Of a stretch of 32,957 nucleotides of DNA, positions 2,351 to 31,720 are shown in pieces. The stretch is from Alphaproteobacteria bacterium (GTDB lineage Bacteria; Pseudomonadota; Alphaproteobacteria; CAAGCB01; CAG-977), in NCBI GenBank assembly GCA_017616015.1, contig JAFZYY010000021.1, positions 1-32,957 on the forward strand, in the 5' to 3' direction. The position numbers and the translations under genes were made by a program. Every line of letters begins with the position of its first letter. Position 1 is the first letter of the stretch. Under the pieces are notes generated by a model. It saw nothing but the letters and a program-made list of their open reading frames with translations, searched no databases and was not told the DNA's origin.

Positions 2351-4040
2351 CAATTGTTATTTACTGGAATATTTGGGCCGCATTGAAACGGGCGAAATAA
2401 TCGCGGGGCAGGAGCTATGGCAAGAGCTTCGCAACCTTGCGGAAGACTTTAACAATGACGAGTATTATTACGACCGGACGGCGGCGCTTTTGCGGTTTGA
2501 TTTTATGGAGCATTGTGTACGGCTGACAAAAAGCCCGTTTTACAATCAGCCCATGAAATTAATGTTATGGCAAAAGGCTTTTATTGAAACGCTTTATAGT
2601 TTCAAAATGCGCCGGGAGTTGATCGACAACGGCAAAGAGATCGACCGTTTTAAAAGGGCGCTTTTGTTGATCGCACGAAAGAACGGCAAAAGCGAAACAT
2701 GCAGCGGGCTGGCAAATGCGGAATTTATCACCGGGAATGAGGGCGCGGACATTGTTTGCAGTTCAAACGACGACGCCCAAGCGTCGATCGTGTACGACGC
2801 AATCGACACAATGCGGATCCTTTACGACCCGCAAAGCATAGACACAAAGCGGAACCAGCGCTTTATTTTAAACAAAACGACCAACACGAAAATTTTTAAA
2901 CTTTCCGACCGCACCCGGAACAAAGAGGGGCGGAACATAGATTGGGCGATTTTGGACGAAGCGCACGAAATGACACAGAACACGATCGCCAAAAGCATAG
3001 AGCAAAGCCAAAGCGTCAAAGACAACCCCAAATTTATCGAGATCACGACCGAGGGCTTCGTGATTGACGGCTATCTTGACGACGAATTGAAAAAGGCGCG
3101 GGCGATCATCAACGGAGAGGACGACAGCATAAGCGGGCAACGTTTTCTGCCGTGGCTTTATACGCAAGACAGCGAAACGGAAATTTTTACAAACCCGCGG
3201 AGCTGGCAGAAATCTAATCCGACAATCGGAATTATAAAACGTTTCGATTATTTGGCCGAACAAGTCGACCTTGCGAAAAAATCAAAAGCCGACCGCATTT
3301 TCGTGCTTTCGAAAGACTTCAATTACAAGCAGAACGGCGCACAAAGCTGGCTTAATGTTGAAGACTATGACTACGGGGCAACGTATGACATTGAAGACTT
3401 TCGCGGTTGTTTTTGCGTCGGACATGTTGACCTTGCGGAGACTACCGACCTTGTTTGCGCGAAAGCGTTAATAATAAAGCCGAACGACAAAACGAAATAC
3501 ATTTTAACCATGTATTTTTTACCGGAAAGCAAGCTGCAGCTTGAAAACGACGACCACAACGCCGGGGCGCATTACAAAGAGTGGGCGCAAGCTGGATATA
3601 TCACAGTAAACGACGGCAACGAAGCGGATTTATCAAACGTGGCGGCATGGTTTTACAAGCTTTACAAAGAACACGGGATAAAGCTATATAAATGCGGCTA
3701 CGATCAGCGGTTCGCAAAAGAATGGCTTGCCGCAATGGAAGAATACGGCTGGACGAAAGCGGCCGGGGACGTCGAAATGATATACCAAAACGCCGAAACG
3801 CTTAATAATGCAATTTCGTTATGTGAAGCGGACTTCAAAAGCCATTTAATCAATTACAACGACAACCCCGTGGACAAGTGGAATCTTTCAAACGCTTGCT
3901 TGAAAGTAAACGAAAAGCGGCAAGCGTTGATAATAAAGACCGACAACGCCAAAAAGATCGACGGCGCCGTAACGCTGGCGAGTTTATACGAAATGTTTAG
4001 ACGTTATCGGAGCGACTTAAAAAAATTAGCTGGAGGCTAA
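2331..4040 (+). CDS. terL: Large terminase subunit (TerL)
   Basis: This 569-residue protein is the packaging ATPase and nuclease that cuts concatemers and drives DNA into the prohead. The Walker A-like motif ARKNGKS is at residues 115-121, Walker B WAILDEAHE at 205-213 and the coupling segment EITTEG at 237-242. The C-terminal nuclease shows an acidic residue in VGHVDLAE (near 367) and another in CGYDQRF. Length and motif order match HK97/P27-associated TerL (Terminase_1 type). It follows the small P27-like gene and is followed after 1 base by the portal, the usual order. Confidence 0.95.
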   Translation: MTMWTADNCYLLEYLGRIETGEIIAGQELWQELRNLAEDFNNDEYYYDRTAALLRFDFMEHCVRLTKSPFYNQPMKLMLWQKAFIETLYSFKMRRELIDNGKEIDRFKRALLLIARKNGKSETCSGLANAEFITGNEGADIVCSSNDDAQASIVYDAIDTMRILYDPQSIDTKRNQRFILNKTTNTKIFKLSDRTRNKEGRNIDWAILDEAHEMTQNTIAKSIEQSQSVKDNPKFIEITTEGFVIDGYLDDELKKARAIINGEDDSISGQRFLPWLYTQDSETEIFTNPRSWQKSNPTIGIIKRFDYLAEQVDLAKKSKADRIFVLSKDFNYKQNGAQSWLNVEDYDYGATYDIEDFRGCFCVGHVDLAETTDLVCAKALIIKPNDKTKYILTMYFLPESKLQLENDDHNAGAHYKEWAQAGYITVNDGNEADLSNVAAWFYKLYKEHGIKLYKCGYDQRFAKEWLAAMEEYGWTKAAGDVEMIYQNAETLNNAISLCEADFKSHLINYNDNPVDKWNLSNACLKVNEKRQALIIKTDNAKKIDGAVTLASLYEMFRRYRSDLKKLAGG

Positions 4041-4041
4041 A

Positions 4042-5298
4042 ATGGGACTTTTTGACAGACTTTTTAAACGTGCGCCGAAAAATGCGAGCTTTGCGCCCAT
4101 GATGAATGGCTGGCTGCCGATTTACTCGCAGTTTGGCACGAACATTTACGCAAGCGACGTAGTGCAACAGGCGCTAAAGTGCATAGTTGACGAATTTAAA
4201 AAGTTGATACCGACGCACGTGCGCACAACAGGGGCAGACCCGATCCCGGTTAGCGGAAATTTGCAAGAAGTATTAAACGACCCGAACCCGCTAATGACAA
4301 CCAGCGAATTTTTAGAGAAAACGGCGTGGCTTTTGCTTTTGAATTATAACGCGTTTATCATACCGACCTATTACACGTGGATAGACGAAAAGACAGGAGC
4401 CGAACGCAGACGCTACGAAAGCCTGTACCCGATTAAACCAACCCAGGTCGACTTTATAGAAGACGCGAGCGGCAAGCTTTTCGTAACATTTTGGTTTGAG
4501 AACGCCGAAAAAACAACGATCGCATACGACGATGTAATACACATAAAATATAATTACAGCGTTTCGCAGTATATGGGCGGAAACGAGTGCGGGCAACCCG
4601 ATCACACCGCATTGCTTCAAACGCTGGAATTAAACAAGACCTTGCTTTCCGGCATAGCCAAAGCCATGAAAGCAAGCTACGCCGTAAACGGCGTTGTTAA
4701 ATACAACACCTTAATGGACGACGGAAAGACGGCCGCGGCGCTGGCAGAATTGGAACGCAAGCTGCAGAACAATGAAAGCGGATTCTTGCCGCTGGATTTA
4801 AAAGCGGACTTTACACCGTTACAGCATACCAGCCAAATAGTTGACGGCGAAACGCTGAAATTTATCGACGAAAAGATACTCCGTAATTGGGGCGTTCCGC
4901 TGGCAATACTCACCGGAGACTTCAACAAAGAACAGTACGAAGCGTTCTACCAAAAGGCGCTGGAACCGCTTGTAATTTCAACATCGCAGGCATTTACAAA
5001 AAAGCTTTTTACGAAGCGCGAGAAAGCGTTCGGCAATGCGATTAAGTTATATCCCAAAGATTTAATTTTTATGAGCATAAGCCAAACGCTGGAAATGATA
5101 AATATATTATCACCGACCGGGGCGCTATTTGAGAACGAAAAGCGCGTGGCGTTAGGATTGAAGCCGCTGCCGGAATTAGAGGGCAAGCGTTATATGAGCT
5201 TGAATTGGATTGACGCAAACAACGCGGCACAGTATCAGACCGGGGCAAACGTAAGCATTGACGTTGTGGACGAAAACAAAGAAGAAAGCGAGGTCTAA
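4042..5298 (+). CDS. HK97-type portal protein
   Basis: The 418-residue product matches the HK97-type portal family: the N-terminal region with YASDVVQQALKCIVDEFKKL, the wing/stem segment around DDVIHIKYNYS, and the late motif KFIDEKILRNWGVPLAILTG followed by a helix with FYQKALEPL. Portals form the dodecameric ring through which DNA enters and to which the tail connector docks. It lies between the large terminase and the protease/capsid pair as expected. Confidence 0.93.
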   Translation: MGLFDRLFKRAPKNASFAPMMNGWLPIYSQFGTNIYASDVVQQALKCIVDEFKKLIPTHVRTTGADPIPVSGNLQEVLNDPNPLMTTSEFLEKTAWLLLLNYNAFIIPTYYTWIDEKTGAERRRYESLYPIKPTQVDFIEDASGKLFVTFWFENAEKTTIAYDDVIHIKYNYSVSQYMGGNECGQPDHTALLQTLELNKTLLSGIAKAMKASYAVNGVVKYNTLMDDGKTAAALAELERKLQNNESGFLPLDLKADFTPLQHTSQIVDGETLKFIDEKILRNWGVPLAILTGDFNKEQYEAFYQKALEPLVISTSQAFTKKLFTKREKAFGNAIKLYPKDLIFMSISQTLEMINILSPTGALFENEKRVALGLKPLPELEGKRYMSLNWIDANNAAQYQTGANVSIDVVDENKEESEV

Positions 5299-16727: not shown

Positions 16728-16919
16728 ATGAACGAATACAAAAAGAGCTTTAAAAAGTTAATTGAAGAGCTGGCAAACCTTGACGAGCTGACAGACGACA
16801 CCGTGGGGGCATGGTTCGGCCGCGTCGATATGAGTTACCAGCATGACGGGATAAGCTACAACGAACAGGCGCTGTTGTTAAAGCTTGCGAACAAGATCAC
16901 AAGGGGGGCGAGAGTATGA
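16728..16919 (+). CDS. Hypothetical accessory cassette protein, 63 aa
   Basis: The start ATG 16728 is set by the leader motif. The 63-residue protein starts MNEYKKSFKKLIEELANL and has a second helix with YNEQALLLKLANKITRG. It overlaps the following Xre gene by 4 bases (ATGA), so the two are translationally coupled and may act together. No family recognised. Confidence 0.6.
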   Translation: MNEYKKSFKKLIEELANLDELTDDTVGAWFGRVDMSYQHDGISYNEQALLLKLANKITRGARV

Positions 16920-17113
16920 AAGACTTTAAAACGTTTCGGGAGTCAACAGGCATGACACAAGCCGAATTTGTCCGGCATTTTGGGATCCCGTTGCGGACGG
17001 AGACGCATTGGGAAACCGGGGACAGACAGCCACCGGAATACGTGGTAAACATGATTAAAAAAATATTGCTTTACGAAAAGGGATACACGCCCGAAGAGAT
17101 CGGGCAAGAATAG
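16916..17113 (+). CDS. Xre-type helix-turn-helix regulator
   Basis: This 65-residue protein is a single HTH: FKTFRESTGMTQAEFVRHFG, then LRTETHWETGDRQPPEYV and a terminal helix. Such small Xre proteins often repress their own operon, and the palindrome at 15774-15788 is a likely site. It is coupled to the gene before it, a layout like a toxin-antitoxin pair, though the partner has no recognisable toxin fold. A terminator follows. Confidence 0.75.
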   Translation: MKDFKTFRESTGMTQAEFVRHFGIPLRTETHWETGDRQPPEYVVNMIKKILLYEKGYTPEEIGQE

Positions 17114-17171: not shown

Positions 17172-17217
17172 AGAAATTTGCGAAGCCTTGCAAATAAAGG
17201 CTTGCGAGACTCACACA

Positions 17218-17264
17218 CTTGACTTTTAATCAAGTTGTCTCGGGTTCGAGTCCCGAGTGGCTCA
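17218..17264 (+). other. attP core: 3' half of tRNA-Lys(UUU)
   Basis: The sequence carries the anticodon stem-loop (CTTGA 17218-17222, loop with TTT anticodon at 17225-17227, TCAAG 17230-17234), a 5-base variable loop, the T arm (TCGGG/CCCGA around TTCGAGT) and the 3' acceptor strand GTGGCTC with discriminator A (17264). The 5' half (D arm and GAGCCAC acceptor strand) is absent, so this is not a working tRNA. Phages that integrate into tRNA genes carry exactly such a 3' part to rebuild the gene. It lies next to the integrase gene. Confidence 0.9.
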
Positions 17265-17480: not shown

Positions 17481-18578
17481 TTAAAGATCAGCAGCGAAGA
17501 CGCGGTCGAGTTTTTCGGCGGCGTTTTCTTTCATTTCGTTTAAATGCGCATAAACGCGCATTAACATTGTCGTGTCCGCGTGTCCCAGCAATTGCGCGGC
17601 CTTTTTTATTGAAACTTCCGAATAAAAAAGCATTGTAGCATAATTGTGGCGGAAAATGTGCGGCGTCAGCGTTTCCGCGTCGGGAGTTTCGGCAGCAAGC
17701 GCCGATTTTATCCTGTCCCACATGCGCCGGAACGAGCTTTTAGTAAGCGGCGATCCGTCGGACATGGTAAAGAGCAAGCCGCTTTTGTCTTTCGTGTACG
17801 CTTTGAGGACGGGCAAAAACGCCGCCGGAATTGGTACCGACCTTATACTGTATATATTTTTCGGCCGTTCGATTTTAGGGGCGTTTTCGTCGAATACAAG
17901 GGCTTGCCGTACGTGTAAAAGCTTTTCTTTGAAATCAATGCGGGAGCAATCAAGCGCCAGGCACTCTTCACGCCGTAAGCCGCAATAATACAGGATAAGC
18001 ACGAACACCCGCTCTCGTTCGTCAAGATCAGCAGAGAAAAGGGCAAGCTTTTCCGGTTCCGTCAAGGGGCGCTTTTCGTTCTTTTCCCTTTTCGGCAAGA
18101 TCAGCTTTTTTATATTGACGCCGCGCCGGATATCCATTTCGAGATCGACGGCCGCCGCATAAAGCTGGCGGAGCGTTAGCTTGATTTTGTTGCACGTTTC
18201 CGGCTTTTCAAAGTTGTAATTTATCACGCCTTGCAGATCGGCTTGCGATATTTCGGAGAAGTACAGGTCACCAAGATCGGGTATTAAATGCTTTTCGATA
18301 ACGTTGCTATACATTGCCCGGGTATTTATTGCCGCATGTTGCTTTTCAGTTCGCAGCCATTGCCGGGCGAACGCGCCGAACGCCATATCATCAGACGGCG
18401 CCGCGTTTTCTGAAAGATACTGCTGCCGGGCGGCGAAAATCTTTTTTTCAAGTTCCGCTTTTGTTTTCGCATAGATCGACCGCCGCACCAGCTTGCCGTC
18501 GCGATCACGCCCAAGGGTTATCTTTTTTTCTATACGGGGCTTTTTTTCTTTTTGTGTCTTCTTTTCTTTCGCTGGCAT
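17481..18578 (-). CDS. int: Tyrosine recombinase integrase
   Basis: The start ATG at 18578 has GGAGG 7 bases before it; the TTG at 18584 is too close to that site. The 365-residue protein has a basic N terminus with an arm-binding beta domain, a SAM-like core-binding domain (FGAFARQWLRTEKQH) and a C-terminal catalytic domain. Catalytic residues: Arg 202 (GLRREE), a Lys near 240, His 307 and Arg 310 (HIFRHNYAT), His 333 (LLGHAD) and Tyr 343 (RVYAHL). It integrates the phage at a host tRNA-Lys gene. It is the last gene of the leftward lysogeny operon, 2 bases after the repressor. Confidence 0.95.
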   Translation of the reverse strand: MPAKEKKTQKEKKPRIEKKITLGRDRDGKLVRRSIYAKTKAELEKKIFAARQQYLSENAAPSDDMAFGAFARQWLRTEKQHAAINTRAMYSNVIEKHLIPDLGDLYFSEISQADLQGVINYNFEKPETCNKIKLTLRQLYAAAVDLEMDIRRGVNIKKLILPKREKNEKRPLTEPEKLALFSADLDERERVFVLILYYCGLRREECLALDCSRIDFKEKLLHVRQALVFDENAPKIERPKNIYSIRSVPIPAAFLPVLKAYTKDKSGLLFTMSDGSPLTKSSFRRMWDRIKSALAAETPDAETLTPHIFRHNYATMLFYSEVSIKKAAQLLGHADTTMLMRVYAHLNEMKENAAEKLDRVFAADL

Positions 18579-18580
18579 AA

Positions 18581-18919
18581 TCAATCCTCCGGGAGATACT
18601 TCAACATTTTGGCATATTCTAACAAGCGCTGCAGCTGGCTTTCGCTGAAATCTTTTGAAATAGTTTCAATTTCGGCTATCGGTTCCGGGAGCGGTTCGAC
18701 CGGAACCGCCGCAAGAATTTCGCTGGGCTTTACATGGAGCGCGTCAGCGAAAAGTTTAATTTTTGCTTGCGGTATATCAGCGGATCCCGTTTCAATTTTT
18801 GCAATGCTTGACCGGGACGTGTACCCGCAAAGCGCGGCGAGATCATCTTGTGACATATCGAGGGCAAGCCGTAAACGCTTTATATTTGCGCCAAATTGTA
18901 ATAGTTCGTTGTTTTTCAT
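18581..18919 (-). CDS. Xre-family regulator with shared C-terminal tail
   Basis: The 112-residue protein has an N-terminal HTH (IKRLRLALDMSQDDLAALCG, SRSSIAKIETGSADI) and a C-terminal helix EIETISKDFSESQLQRLLEY. The same tail ends the repressor encoded just upstream, so the two may oligomerise with each other. It overlaps that gene by 4 bases and is followed by the integrase. No peptidase domain is present. It may be a second immunity repressor or a regulator of integrase. Confidence 0.8.
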   Translation of the reverse strand: MKNNELLQFGANIKRLRLALDMSQDDLAALCGYTSRSSIAKIETGSADIPQAKIKLFADALHVKPSEILAAVPVEPLPEPIAEIETISKDFSESQLQRLLEYAKMLKYLPED

Positions 18920-19530
18920 AATTTGCCCTCGTTGTATTGTTTTAACATTTTCGCATATTCTACAAGCCTATTTAGCTGGCTTTCGTTCATATCTTTGGCG
19001 AGCGTTTCAATTTCAATTATAGATCCCGTTTTATTATCATCAAAAGACCAACCCATAAGCGCCTGCGGCGAGGTTTTGAGAATTTCGGCAAGTGGTTCTA
19101 TAATATCAGCCGGTATTTTTTCTATTTCGTTGCTTTCGTAACGATAATATGTGGCGCGGTTAATATTTAGCTTTTCGGCTATATAATCAACAGATATGCC
19201 CAGCGCTTGCCGCCTTGATTTTATTCTTTCGTTTATTGTTTGAGCGGAAACAATTAAAGCGGGTTCGGGACGTTCCTTGCGTTCTTTTTCGACATCATAT
19301 CCCATTAACCAAGCCTCGGAAACGTTCAAAGCACGCGCCAAAATATAAAGCTTGTTTTGCTTTGGCGTGGCTTTTCCCGCGATATATTGTGAAATATCCG
19401 AACGGTTCATTTTAATTTTGAATTGTTCAAGGTATGGCATGCAGCGTTCCAAAATATCGGCTTGTTTAATATTTTCAGTTTCAAGGATATAGCGAAGCCG
19501 TTCCGCCGTTGTTGTGGTTTTTTCTGCCAT
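18916..19530 (-). CDS. Double-HTH phage repressor
   Basis: I use ATG 19530, preceded by AAAGGGGGTG; the ATG at 19551 lies upstream of that site. The 204-residue protein appears to hold two HTH domains: residues about 8-75 (MNRSDISQYIAGKATPKQNK, ALNVSEAWLMGYD) and about 100-165 (IKSRRQALGISVDYIAEKL, RATYYRYESNEIE). A tail EIETLAKDMNESQLNRLVEY follows. It lacks an S24 peptidase domain, so RecA-driven self-cleavage is unlikely and induction must work otherwise. It is first in the leftward operon and probably the main immunity repressor. Confidence 0.8.
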   Translation of the reverse strand: MAEKTTTTAERLRYILETENIKQADILERCMPYLEQFKIKMNRSDISQYIAGKATPKQNKLYILARALNVSEAWLMGYDVEKERKERPEPALIVSAQTINERIKSRRQALGISVDYIAEKLNINRATYYRYESNEIEKIPADIIEPLAEILKTSPQALMGWSFDDNKTGSIIEIETLAKDMNESQLNRLVEYAKMLKQYNEGKL

Positions 19531-19556: not shown

Positions 19557-19584
19557 ATTATAACACGCTTTTTCAAAATGTTAA
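19557..19584 (-). promoter_or_regulatory. Leftward lysogeny promoter
   Basis: On the minus strand TTAACA (19584-19579), 16 bases and an extended -10 TGTTATAAT (TATAAT at 19562-19557). It drives the repressors and integrase. Confidence 0.75.
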
Positions 19585-19588
19585 AGTG

Positions 19589-19610
19589 TTTTTTACAATA
19601 ATGTAAAAAA
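19589..19610. promoter_or_regulatory. Palindromic operator between divergent promoters
   Basis: TTTTTTACA (19589-19597) and TGTAAAAAA (19602-19610) form a perfect 9-bp inverted repeat around ATAA. Its place between the two -35 boxes suits binding by a repressor that controls both directions. Confidence 0.65.
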
Positions 19611-19624
19611 TTGAACAAAAATGC

Positions 19625-19653
19625 TTGACAACGTTTTTGTGTTGAATTATATT
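19625..19653 (+). promoter_or_regulatory. Rightward early promoter
   Basis: TTGACA (19625-19630), 17-base spacer and TATATT (19648-19653). Transcription would begin near 19660, at the edge of operator GTTCAAGATTGAAC, and run through the whole early operon. Confidence 0.85.
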
Positions 19654-19659
19654 TGAATT

Positions 19660-19673
19660 GTTCAAGATTGAAC
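19660..19673. promoter_or_regulatory. Operator copy 1
   Basis: Perfect palindrome GTTCAA-GA-TTGAAC at the predicted transcription start of the rightward promoter. The identical 14-mer recurs at 19911-19924. A half site TTGAAC lies at 19611-19616. Confidence 0.75.
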
Positions 19674-19700: not shown

Positions 19701-19922
19701 ATGGCTTTCAACTATGCAAAATTAAAAGGGCGTATAATTGAAATTTTCGGAAACAACGGATCATTTATTGACGCCATGGGCTGGAGCCGCCCGACATTTT
19801 CACGCAAGATCAGCGGCGAAAGCGAATGGACAGACAACGAAATTTTTAAAGCTGCCGAGCTTTTAAAAATTGACGTTGAAAAAATCCACATTTATTTTTT
19901 TGTCGTAAGTGTTCAAGATTGA
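19701..19922 (+). CDS. Cro-like DNA-binding protein (DUF739-like)
   Basis: The start ATG 19701 follows AAAGGGGG. The 73-residue protein reads KLKGRIIEIFGNNGSFIDAM, then WSRPTFSRKISGESEWTDNE, typical of DUF739/Cro-type proteins in Bacillota phages. As first gene of the early operon it should repress the lysogeny promoter and commit to lytic growth. Its stop codon lies inside operator copy 2. Confidence 0.82.
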   Translation: MAFNYAKLKGRIIEIFGNNGSFIDAMGWSRPTFSRKISGESEWTDNEIFKAAELLKIDVEKIHIYFFVVSVQD

Positions 19923-19924
19923 AC
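19911..19924. promoter_or_regulatory. Operator copy 2
   Basis: The same palindrome GTTCAAGATTGAAC as at 19660-19673, overlapping the stop codon of the Cro-like gene. A weak promoter (TTGACG 19870-19875, 17 bases, TATTTT 19893-19898) could lie upstream. Binding here may block elongation into the excisionase-like gene. Confidence 0.65.
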
Positions 19925-19940
19925 AAACGGGGGCAACATT

Positions 19941-20135
19941 ATGGAAAAGCTGGCGAAGTATTGGAGCGTAACCAAAACCGCGGATTTTTACGGCTTTACG
20001 CGAAAAACAGTTTTAGAAATGTGCGCCGCAAGGGGATCCCGGTTCGCTTTCAAGCTGAAAGAAAACGGGCGCTATTATATCGACCCGAAGCTGTTCAAAC
20101 AGTACATTGACCGGAAACGGAGAGAGGGGGCATAA
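19941..20135 (+). CDS. Excisionase-like small DNA-binding protein
   Basis: The 64-residue basic protein has a winged-helix/MerR-like pattern: WSVTKTADFYGFTRKTVLEMC, then FAFKLKENGRYYIDPKLFKQYIDRKRRE. Proteins of this size and form are excisionases or small regulators. Its place as second early gene fits a directionality factor for the integrase, but the assignment is by pattern. Confidence 0.65.
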   Translation: MEKLAKYWSVTKTADFYGFTRKTVLEMCAARGSRFAFKLKENGRYYIDPKLFKQYIDRKRREGA

Positions 20136-23381: not shown

Positions 23382-23780
23382 ATGGGATTTTATAGCAGAT
23401 TTAAAAGCAATAAATACGGCAACCGTAAAATTTTGTACGGCGGCGAGATTTACGACAGCAAAGCCGAAGCCCGACGGGGCGCGGAGCTGGAAGCCATGGC
23501 AAGCGCCGGAGAGATCACCGACCTACGGCGACAAGTTTCTTTTGAGTTGATACCAGCGCAACGGGAGCCGGACACGATCGGCAAGCGCGGCGGAGTGATT
23601 AAAGGCAAGTTGATCGAGCGCGCCGTGTATTATGTGGCGGATTTTGTTTACGTCAACAGGGACGGCGACACGATCGTCGAAGACGTCAAGGGAATGAGGA
23701 CGCCGGAATACATCATCAAAAGAAAACTAATGTTATACGTTCACGGGATCCGCGTTCGTGAGATTGGGGGCAAGAAATGA
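23382..23780 (+). CDS. DUF1064-like putative nuclease
   Basis: The 132-residue basic protein shows NKYGNRKILYGGEIYDSKAE, FELIPAQ, then YYVADFVYVNRDGDTIVEDV and KGMRTPEYIIKRKLM, the DUF1064 pattern. Acidic and Lys residues (Glu of SKAEA, Asp of VADF, ED-x-K of VEDVKG) are arranged like a PD-(D/E)XK nuclease, and this family is thought to be resolvase-like. It overlaps the next gene by 4 bases. Confidence 0.82.
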   Translation: MGFYSRFKSNKYGNRKILYGGEIYDSKAEARRGAELEAMASAGEITDLRRQVSFELIPAQREPDTIGKRGGVIKGKLIERAVYYVADFVYVNRDGDTIVEDVKGMRTPEYIIKRKLMLYVHGIRVREIGGKK

Positions 23781-24625
23781 AAGACAGTTTTATTTTTTAT
23801 ACGGCCTACGCTGAAAAATTTAAAAGGCTATCGGATTTACAGTTCGGGCAATTTGTCCGGGCGCTTGTAACATATCAAGCAACGGGCAGCGTGCCGGAGA
23901 TCGCGGACACGGTTGTCGGTATGGCTTTCGACGTTGCAAAAATCGAGATCGACGCCGCAAACAGCAAGTATTTGGAAATGTGCGAGCAAAGGCGCGAAGC
24001 TGGAAGAAAAGGCGGACAGGCAAGCAAGCCGAAGCAAACCGAAGCAAACGAAAGCAAGCCAAAGCAAACCGAAGCAAACGAAAGCAAGCCAAAGCAAACG
24101 GAAACAAAACCAACCTATAATGATAATGAGAATGAGAATGATAATAATATATATACTCTCACCGCGCGCGCGCACACGCGTATAGAAGAAACAGACTCGG
24201 AACCGGAAAAACCCACCGCTATGGACTTATTTAACGAATTTTGGAGCGCCTACCCGTACAAGGTTGCGCGCATAGCAGCCGAACAGGCATGGGCACGACT
24301 TAATCCGACCCCGGAGCTTGCGGCGGAAATTATTGCGGGCGTAAAGCTACACCGCGAAAAGAACGAAAGCTGGCGAAGAGAAAAGGGGCGTTATATCCCG
24401 AAGCCGGAAACGTTCCTCGCGGATCAGCGTTGGCGCGATCAGCTACCCGAAGAGCTGCCGGAGCTGCCGGAACCGAAACCGAAATCACAGCCACCGGAAA
24501 AAGAGAAACCAAAGCCCGGGAGTTTTAGCGACTTTCCGCAAAGAGATCACGACGAAGATTATTTTGCCGAATTGGAACGGCGAAAGCTGGCTGAAAGTGT
24601 AACAAGAATAGGGGGTGCGAAATGA
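23777..24625 (+). CDS. Replication initiator (DUF6291-like N terminus)
   Basis: The 282-residue protein starts with a helical module (FYTAYAEKFKRLSDLQFGQF, FDVAKIEIDAANSKY) of the DUF6291 type, followed by RREAGRKGGQ and a linker of repeated KPKQTEANES units. The C-terminal half (FNEFWSAYPYKVARIAAEQA, WRREKGRYIPKPETFLADQR) is a replication-protein tail found in many phage initiators. The linker DNA forms short tandem repeats followed by AT-rich DNA, an origin-like structure as in lambda O. No helicase loader gene is recognisable nearby. Confidence 0.75.
   Translation: MKDSFIFYTAYAEKFKRLSDLQFGQFVRALVTYQATGSVPEIADTVVGMAFDVAKIEIDAANSKYLEMCEQRREAGRKGGQASKPKQTEANESKPKQTEANESKPKQTETKPTYNDNENENDNNIYTLTARAHTRIEETDSEPEKPTAMDLFNEFWSAYPYKVARIAAEQAWARLNPTPELAAEIIAGVKLHREKNESWRREKGRYIPKPETFLADQRWRDQLPEELPELPEPKPKSQPPEKEKPKPGSFSDFPQRDHDEDYFAELERRKLAESVTRIGGAK
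24022..24170 (+). repeat. Iteron-like repeats and AT-rich tract: candidate origin
   Basis: About eight degenerate decamers of the form RAAGCAARCS run from 24022 to 24100, also visible as a 30-base unit repeated twice. An AT-rich stretch follows (24107-24162) with AATGA/AATGATAAT runs and TATATATA. The whole lies within the initiator gene. Iterons next to an easily melted tract are the layout of theta-type phage origins. Confidence 0.65.
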
Positions 24626-30481: not shown

Positions 30482-31720
30482 ATGCGAAAGAGTAAAAGCA
30501 GCGACGCGCTACAAATTGAATATTTACCCGTTGACAGCTTGCAATCATACGAGAACAACGCGAGAGCGCACGCGGACGCGGATATAAATGCAATATGCGA
30601 AAGTATTGCACAATTTGGCTTTTCCGACCCGATCGGCATTTGGAGCGAAAACAATCTGATAGTTGAGGGGCACGGGAGACTTGAAGCCGCCAAGCGTTTG
30701 GGGCTTGACGCCGTACCCTGTATCCGTTTAGATCATCTCACGGACGAAGAGCGCCGGGCGTACGCGATCGCCCACAACAAAACCGCGGAGCTTTCAAAGT
30801 GGGACTTTGAAAAGCTGGATTTGGAAATTGCAAGCTTGCCGCAGATCAACTTCACGGCGTTGGGCTTTGAACCCGTCGAGGGGGGGCGGCATGAATGGTT
30901 CGACCGGGAAGACAAAGACGGCAACCAGCACCAAGAGGGAAACGACGAATACAACGCATTTGTTGACAAGTTCGAGCAGCCGAAAACCACCGACGATTGT
31001 TATACGCCCGAAAATGTTTATAACGTGATTGCGGATTGGGTTGCCAAAGAGTACGGAAAAAACAAAAAGGACTTTGCAAGACCGTTTTATCCCGGCGGAG
31101 ATTATCAAAACGAAAAATATAAAAAGGGTTGCACCGTCGTAGACAATCCGCCTTTTAGCATATTGTCGGAAATCATAAAATACTATAACGCCAAAAAGAT
31201 AGATTATTTTTTGTTTTGTCCGGGTTTGCTTTTGGGTTCGCCGTGCCGCAATAACGCCTGTATCATTTGCACCGACGCACAGATCATGTACGAGAACAAG
31301 GCAATTATTAAAACCAATTTTGTCACGAACATGGAACCGGGGCTGATAGCGCGAACGGTTCCGGAGCTTTTCGAGATCATCAAAGAAGAGGACGCGAAAA
31401 ACCGGGCGGAGCTGACACGCACGAATCCCGTTTATAAATACCCGCCGCACTTACAGACAGCGGCAAGCTTGAATTATATGGCGCATTATGGGATCCCGTT
31501 TTCAATCCGCAAAGAATCTGCCGTGGTTGTTGATGATTTGGACGCCATGAAAGAATATAAAAAGACTATTTTCGGCGACGGGCTTTTGCTTTCAGAAGCG
31601 GCAGCAGAAGCGGCAGCAGAAGCGGCAGCAGAAGCGGCAGGCATTGAGGGCAGCGCAAAAAATCCGATCGTTTGGGAATTAAGCGAAAGAGAAAAGGAAA
31701 TTATAAAAGGGCTTAAATAA
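30482..31720 (+). CDS. ParB-like domain fused to EcoRI-type adenine methylase
   Basis: The 412-residue protein has an N-terminal ParB/Srx-type domain (residues 12-110; EYLPVDSLQSYENNAR, VEGHGRLEAAKRLG) followed by a region resembling EcoRI-type adenine methyltransferases: DDCYTPENVYNVIADWV and the catalytic-type DNPPF at 221-225. Near residue 372 there is an (EAAA)-repeat helix. The fusion may scan DNA and methylate it, protecting packaged DNA or marking packaging sites. It stands between lysis genes and the TerS-like gene. Confidence 0.82.
   Translation: MRKSKSSDALQIEYLPVDSLQSYENNARAHADADINAICESIAQFGFSDPIGIWSENNLIVEGHGRLEAAKRLGLDAVPCIRLDHLTDEERRAYAIAHNKTAELSKWDFEKLDLEIASLPQINFTALGFEPVEGGRHEWFDREDKDGNQHQEGNDEYNAFVDKFEQPKTTDDCYTPENVYNVIADWVAKEYGKNKKDFARPFYPGGDYQNEKYKKGCTVVDNPPFSILSEIIKYYNAKKIDYFLFCPGLLLGSPCRNNACIICTDAQIMYENKAIIKTNFVTNMEPGLIARTVPELFEIIKEEDAKNRAELTRTNPVYKYPPHLQTAASLNYMAHYGIPFSIRKESAVVVDDLDAMKEYKKTIFGDGLLLSEAAAEAAAEAAAEAAGIEGSAKNPIVWELSEREKEIIKGLK
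31595..31640 (+). repeat. 12-base tandem repeat encoding an EAAA helix
   Basis: GAAGCGGCAGCA occurs three times and a partial fourth time. Each unit encodes EAAA, so changes in copy number keep the reading frame but alter the length of a rigid helix in the methylase fusion. Confidence 0.9.

Follow-up and report, generated by a model that had tools for sequence, protein, structure and literature searches.

The window, that is the whole stretch of 32,957 nucleotides analysed here, contains a locus which, judged from its sequence, is a CI/MOR switch of the TP901-1 type, an identity that an earlier note on this DNA had overlooked. We tentatively read it, with somewhat less than even confidence, as a temperate phage's lysogeny module whose repressor has been made multivalent, so that additional DNA readers would repress superinfecting phages. 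In the textbook case, immunity relies on one repressor acting against one operator family.

The predicted anatomy of the two repressors is well supported. The CI-like repressor rep1 (18916-19530, minus strand; 204 aa), identified by Pfam and by phmmer searches of the PDB, consists of HTH1, HTH2 and a C-terminal tail termed hook 1; rep2 (18581-18919, minus strand; 112 aa; Pfam) consists of HTH3 and hook 2. The genes are neighbours, and the stop codon of rep1 and the start codon of rep2 share an ATGA overlap. Of the three HTH_3 stretches detected by Pfam, two lie in rep1 and the third in rep2, which confirms the earlier proposal of two adjacent repressors, one of them with two HTH domains. HTH1 (rep1 residues 7-83; 19282-19512, minus strand) belongs to the class of the TP901-1 CI N-terminal domain, HTH2 (rep1 residues 97-162; 19045-19242, minus strand; helix INRATYYRYE) to the class represented by the stand-alone IMEP5 phage repressor, and HTH3 (rep2 residues 6-71; 18707-18904, minus strand) to the SSIAKIE class. 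The HTH parts of the two proteins, which had been described as differing, thus represent three separate classes. The hooks, a CTD1-like putative dimerisation tail in rep1 (residues 171-200; 18931-19020, minus strand) and its counterpart in rep2 (residues 81-107; 18599-18679, minus strand), both supported by tail alignment, AlphaFold2 and a hook profile, lie close to the C-terminal ends of the chains.

As had likewise been stated, neither protein carries a peptidase domain. Pfam yielded no peptidase family in rep1 or rep2 up to E = 1, a local search with an S24-peptidase profile and an ImmA-type profile gave no ORF of the window below E 0.01, and the HExxH motif occurs in none of the 281 window ORFs tested. 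The S24 peptidase domain required by a LexA/lambda-type self-cleaving CI is therefore absent here by both Pfam and the local profile. An ImmR/ImmA system is not indicated either, as no ImmA adjoins the repressors and the integrase gene directly follows rep2, and a SinI-type hook domain gave no Pfam match up to E = 1 in the two proteins. The further claim that induction proceeds by something other than RecA-stimulated cleavage holds only in part: the peptidase is indeed lacking, but this feature is not specific, since the CI protein of TP901-1 has no peptidase and its induction nevertheless requires RecA, in a way not yet understood (PMC11149083). A RecA-dependent induction is therefore not excluded by the missing peptidase.

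The assignment to the CI/MOR type is based on several features. HTH1 is homologous to the TP901-1 CI protein (PDB 6tri, 5a7l and 3zhm by phmmer; 7.7e-20 for 6tri), and divergent from rep1 lies a mor homologue of the DUF739 family (19701-19922, plus strand), which matches Pfam PF05339 with 1.5e-19 and the MOR structure 6to6 with 6.2e-10. A PL-like promoter (TTGACA-17-TATATT; 19625-19653, plus strand) and a PR-like promoter (TTAACA-16-TATAAT; 19557-19584, minus strand) each match the consensus at 11 of 12 positions. TP901-1 employs the operators OL, OR and OD with the half-site AGTTCAYR (PMC8516035; PMC11149083). Correspondingly, the perfect palindrome GTTCAAGATTGAAC is found directly past the PL-like promoter (OL-like; 19660-19673) and again at the end of mor (OD-like; 19911-19924). 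These are the only two GTTCAA..TTGAAC palindromes in the window and both lie inside the switch; in 20 simulated sequences 0.05 perfect class-1 sites were expected. A third perfect site that would correspond to OR was not found, and only half-sites are present near position 19611.

A switch of this kind appears workable without the additional readers, as indicated by L003, a viral contig of 4.6 kb. Here, an HTH1 with 95% identity is fused directly to the hook and followed by the integrase, MOR is 85% identical, and the palindromes GTTCAATCTTGAAC and GTTCAACTTTGAAC take the same positions as in the window, while both HTH2 and HTH3 are missing. HTH1, MOR and the operators hence form a complete set, and HTH2 and rep2 are best regarded as additions.

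The remainder of the module is in keeping with a temperate phage. A tyrosine integrase gene (17481-18578, minus strand; Pfam) directly follows rep2 in the same orientation, and a small HTH_17-like protein encoded at 19941-20135 (plus strand), which falls below the Pfam cut-off and matches PHROG 66 with E 0.026, is a possible excisionase. Beside the integrase gene, a candidate attP core (17216-17255, plus strand) shares 37 of 40 bases with a host tRNA-Lys gene, the first 20 exactly; the counterpart is an intact tRNA-Lys(TTT) gene (C4:107455-107530), and the exact 20 bases are its anticodon arm. As attP is whole in the phage contig, the phage was, it appears, assembled in its non-integrated form. 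Next to attP and reading towards it is a small XRE gene (16916-17113) with weak MqsA-type and VC1465-type matches, and a short ORF at 15857-16168 matches the N-terminal domain of the anti-restriction protein ArdC (PF08401, 4.4e-05). Elsewhere in the window, translations reveal in-frame tandem peptide repeats in two ORFs, SKPKQTEANE at 23777-24625, which we take to be a replication-type ORF, and AAAE at 30482-31720, presumably a ParB/methyltransferase-like ORF.

We then assigned operator codes to the HTH classes from the upstream regions of related loci on viral contigs, a biased sample comprising the best 80 of 490 (class 1), 225 (class 2) and 177 (class 3) confirmed relatives. The table included dereplicated loci with at least 250 bases upstream, counted paired half-sites and excluded L247 and L248. 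One code dominates per HTH class. Among the loci from the best 80 of 490, class 1 is associated with GTTCA in 59 of 78. For class 2 (best 80 of 225), loci with the helix N-R-A-T show TCGCA in 27 of 37 cases, those with S-R-A-T show TCTCA (6/11) or TCGCA (4/11), and N-R-T-T goes with TTGCA in 3 of 4. Within class 3 (best 80 of 177), the 3A type (SSIAKIE) is accompanied by GTGAA at 16 of 29 loci, and the 3N type by GTAGA (22/37), TGTAG (15/37) or GGACA (6/37). Matches to the wrong code were rarer than those to the own code, and looser filters resulted in similar counts. Viewed along the class-2 loci L113-L192, N-R-A-T pairs with TCGCA and S-R-A-T with TCTCA or TCGCA, and helices in which T replaces A have mostly TTGCA.

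Each HTH can thus be assigned to a class whose predicted operator is readable from its relatives, which is new here: GTTCA..TGAAC for HTH1, TCGCA..TGCGA for HTH2 from its helix INRATYYRYE, and GTGAA..TTCAC for HTH3 from its helix YTSRSSIAKIE. These predicted codes agree with the earlier view that the two proteins read different operators. Besides rep1, the Y variant of class 2 occurs at L131 and L172, both of which have S instead of N together with TCTCA sites, so that it indicates no clear separate code.

Sites for the two additional readers are nearly lacking in the phage as well as in its host. Neither TCGCA..TGCGA nor GTGAA..TTCAC occurs in the 33 kb window, and with one mismatch allowed we counted one and zero, respectively, which is below chance; TCTCA..TGAGA is absent from the window, too. 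The host genome contains no TCGCAN4TGCGA, one TCGCAN5TGCGA and no GTGAAN5TTCAC, with 3, 2 and 2 occurrences of the reversed-pattern controls, and owing to these near-zero counts a host regulon for HTH2 or HTH3 was rejected. An example of the class-2 arrangement is provided by L121, a phage recovered from the metagenome that also yielded L003; it encodes a class-2 repressor (HTH 65% identical) and has, in a record of 33 kb, exactly two TCGCA sites, both near the repressor gene. The class-2-type site from L121 reads TCGCATTTATGCGA, and the class-3A-type site from L247 reads GTGAATTTAATTCAC. The expected site is, however, also missing at 10 of 37 class-2 N-A loci and 13 of 29 class-3A loci (best 80 of 225 and 177, respectively), so that the absence of a site is weak evidence; even if HTH2 and HTH3 acted on this phage, both would be absent by bad luck with a probability of about 0.27 x 0.45 = 0.12 in what is a post hoc test. 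The apparent lack of cognate sites for HTH2 and HTH3 in their own phage is thus no more than suggestive.

The earlier note had also pointed to related C-terminal tails and considered them as an oligomerisation element. Indeed, the tails of rep1, EIETLAKDMNESQLNRLVEYAKMLK, and rep2, EIETISKDFSESQLQRLLEYAKMLK, are identical at 19 of 25 residues, and their local alignment score of 101 was equalled by none of 2000 shuffles, so that the likeness is not due to chance. They are best interpreted as a two-helix dimerisation hook. AlphaFold2 places two helices past a linker in rep2 (H81-88 and H93-107; mean pLDDT 88.3) and likewise in rep1 (H171-178 and H183-200), the latter model being of low confidence (mean pLDDT 70.5, pTM 0.42). 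A hook profile built from nine sequences, TP901-1 being left out, and searched against 177,635 PDB sequences returned 6FXA, the CTD1 of TP901-1 CI, as the top match with E 0.001; as unrelated designed proteins follow from 0.006, this support is real but modest. In pairwise comparisons the tails score weakly against TP901-1 (equalled by 15 and 43 of 1000 shuffles) and more strongly against IMEP5 (0 and 1 of 1000). The presence of a CTD1 helical hook is thus indicated by weak to moderate sequence similarity together with the two predicted helices. In TP901-1 CI, dimerisation is mediated by CTD1 (PMC4941734), and the resemblance of the tails to it makes homo- and heterodimers of rep1 and rep2 through their hooks plausible. 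CTD2, the hexamerisation region, is absent, as both proteins stop a few residues past the hook. At the DNA level hooks 1 and 2 are 70% identical, hook 2 and that of L003 68%, and hook 1 and that of L003 66%; these values show no recent tandem copy, and a recent in-place duplication of the tail was rejected.

The full rep1-rep2 pair was not found in scans of viral sequences, relative genomes, the phylum and genome contigs. L003 was the sole match when viral sequences were scanned with rep1, and viral scans with rep2, HTH2 plus hook and the integrase gave no matches. Rep1 had matches in four of 143 relatives, namely in the host and in three more (L004-L007) where the match was confined to HTH2. 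A match was obtained in one of 398 in the phylum and, in a separate search with rep2, in one of 136, in both cases the host itself. A search of genome contigs gave three weak HTH1-like loci. Moreover, within the host genome rep1 matched only rep1 and rep2 at E<=10, which gives no indication of a second prophage of these classes.

Combinations of repressor HTHs do occur elsewhere. L247 and L248 each encode three co-directional repressors, a 3A protein, a 3N protein and an XRE plus class-1 protein with a hook-like tail, and their operators are of the first class (3A, GTGAA) only. Class-1 sites and GTAGA-type class-3N sites are both lacking from the whole records (24.4 and 23.9 kb), and GGACA-type class-3N sites were absent from the locus sequences; based on the same operator table, the chance of missing both other codes is about 0.06. 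At least two repressor HTH classes combined with own operators of one class only are hence found in the window as well as in L247/L248. The three repressor genes of different operator classes are contained in one lysogeny module (L247 2986-4599), followed by lipoprotein-like and serine-recombinase-like ORFs, both candidates named by eye. Repressors with several HTHs account for 4 of 81 class-1, 1 of 73 class-2 and 3 of 75 class-3 distinct proteins; further examples are L082, L088/L092, L157, L219, L267, L270 and L078. Among nine such loci scanned (L078 not included), six have own sites of one code each, and L088, L092 and L270 have none; most of the extra domains have no assignable code. In L082, a 477-aa repressor frame (2824-4257), reckoned from an in-frame upstream start, contains four HTHs and a hook-like end, and class-1 operators occur only at its own switch within the record of 49.6 kb. 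L019, L079 and others were not counted as arrays, as the class '1' regex matches on opposite strands look like other XRE genes.

We propose that HTH1 would occupy GTTCAAGATTGAAC at both operators flanking mor and thereby shut the phage's own lytic promoter, with MOR countering rep1 by binding HTH1. HTH2, placed between HTH1 and the hook, would serve as a second DNA reader, and the coupled rep2 gene would bring a third, HTH3, on a matching hook. Through the hooks the chains would come together in homodimers and probably also in heterodimers. HTH2 and HTH3, whose classes serve as repressors in other temperate phages, would bind the switch operators of other immunity groups (TCGCA..TGCGA and GTGAA..TTCAC), whereby foreign temperate phages would be silenced. 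Given that phage and host are practically devoid of HTH2 and HTH3 sites, the repression of superinfecting phages of other groups appears to be their likeliest job.

The main result against multivalent immunity is the AT-rich perfect palindrome TTTTTTACAATAATGTAAAAAA at 19589-19610, between the PR-like and PL-like promoters, which has class-2 geometry (TnnCA N4 TGnnA) with 9-bp arms and could serve HTH2 or HTH3 as a binding site on their own phage. The extra domains would then tune their own switch combinatorially, one or both of them acting on diverged own sites such as this one, an alternative that we consider rather unlikely. The palindrome is perfect here and not in L003, which is devoid of HTH2 and HTH3, and its core is absent from the other switches scanned (0/77, 0/58 and 0/71 for the three classes); moreover, a repressor with two XRE HTHs, that of the Clostridioides difficile phage phiCDKH01, is known to bind the control region of its own phage (PMC11172241). 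On the other hand, TCGCA rather than TTACA is predicted by the class-2 recognition residues N and A, and a perfect arm of 9 arose by chance in about 5% of simulated switches (16/300).

It is less probable still that rep2 acts mainly as a hook partner in a SinR/SlrR-like manner, heterodimerising with rep1 so as to weaken it or direct it to other sites, while the DNA code of rep2 itself would matter little. The likeness of the tails, their resemblance to a known dimerisation hook, the matched synthesis of both proteins that the ATGA overlap would provide and the SinR-SlrR precedent (PMC3163267) argue for such a role; yet the HTH of rep2 has kept a class-3A recognition helix, and the hook is common to many otherwise different CI proteins, so that its presence alone is no sign of pairing. 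Equally improbable in our estimate, the extra domains could be pieces derived from the immunity regions of other phages, linked by recombination via the common hook sequence and now functionless. The module is mosaic, L003 has HTH1, hook and integrase with no insert between them, and the similarity of the three hook DNAs is consistent with this origin. Against a lack of function, both extra frames are intact and ATGA-coupled with intact recognition helices, and a similar set recurs in the independent lineage L247.

If multivalent immunity is correct, immunity groups would no longer be separable, and a prophage could protect its host from heteroimmune phages with no defence system dedicated to that task. 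With still more reserve we suggest a generalisation, namely that multivalent immunity repressors occur in some temperate phages, their lysogeny modules having gained readers for the operator codes of other immunity groups; one prophage would thereby silence several unrelated kinds of incoming phage through ordinary repression, with targets predictable from the recognition helix: TCGCA for N-R-A-T, mostly TCTCA for S-R-A-T, mostly TTGCA when T replaces A, GTGAA for SSIAKIE, and TGTAG or GGACA for SSINKIE. The class-operator table makes the basis of immunity specificity in phages of Gram-positive bacteria directly testable.

In the open-access literature, as searched by title and the beginning of the abstract, no paper was found on repressors to which the operator specificities of other phages have been added. 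With the CI/MOR systems of TP901-1 and phi13 the locus shares the CI N-terminal domain, the divergent MOR, the helical hook and GTTCA-type palindromes, one of them at the end of mor, and with TP901-1 also a CI devoid of peptidase. In contrast to them, it has an extra HTH before the hook, a coupled second repressor gene, two perfect operators only and no metalloprotease gene adjoining cI, and it lacks the CTD2 of TP901-1. A two-HTH phage repressor is in itself not new, as phiCDKH01_17 is of similar size and has two XRE HTH domains; for this protein, binding to its own region is reported, and the available part of the report proposes no site consensus and describes neither separate domain specificities nor a coupled second repressor (PMC11172241). 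ICESt1 and ICESt3 likewise combine two different HTH repressors, the cI-like Arp1 and the ImmR-like Arp2, in one mobile-element module, but they include a metalloprotease gene, and the source passages mention neither a tail common to both repressors nor a protein with two HTHs (PMC3234194). In the Bacillus SinR/SlrR/SinI system, an HTH is similarly joined to a two-helix hook, through which SinR forms homo- and heterodimers, including those with SinI (PMC3163267). SinR (1b0n) also ranks eighth among the Foldseek matches of rep2; unlike rep1 and rep2, in which Pfam finds no SinI match, these proteins are chromosomal biofilm regulators. Finally, the repressor of Staphylococcus phage IMEP5 (KX156762), a protein of 112 aa that is 48.6% identical to residues 98-197 of rep1, corresponds to HTH2 and tail alone, and, in contrast to rep1, it has a single HTH and TCGCA-type operators of its own.
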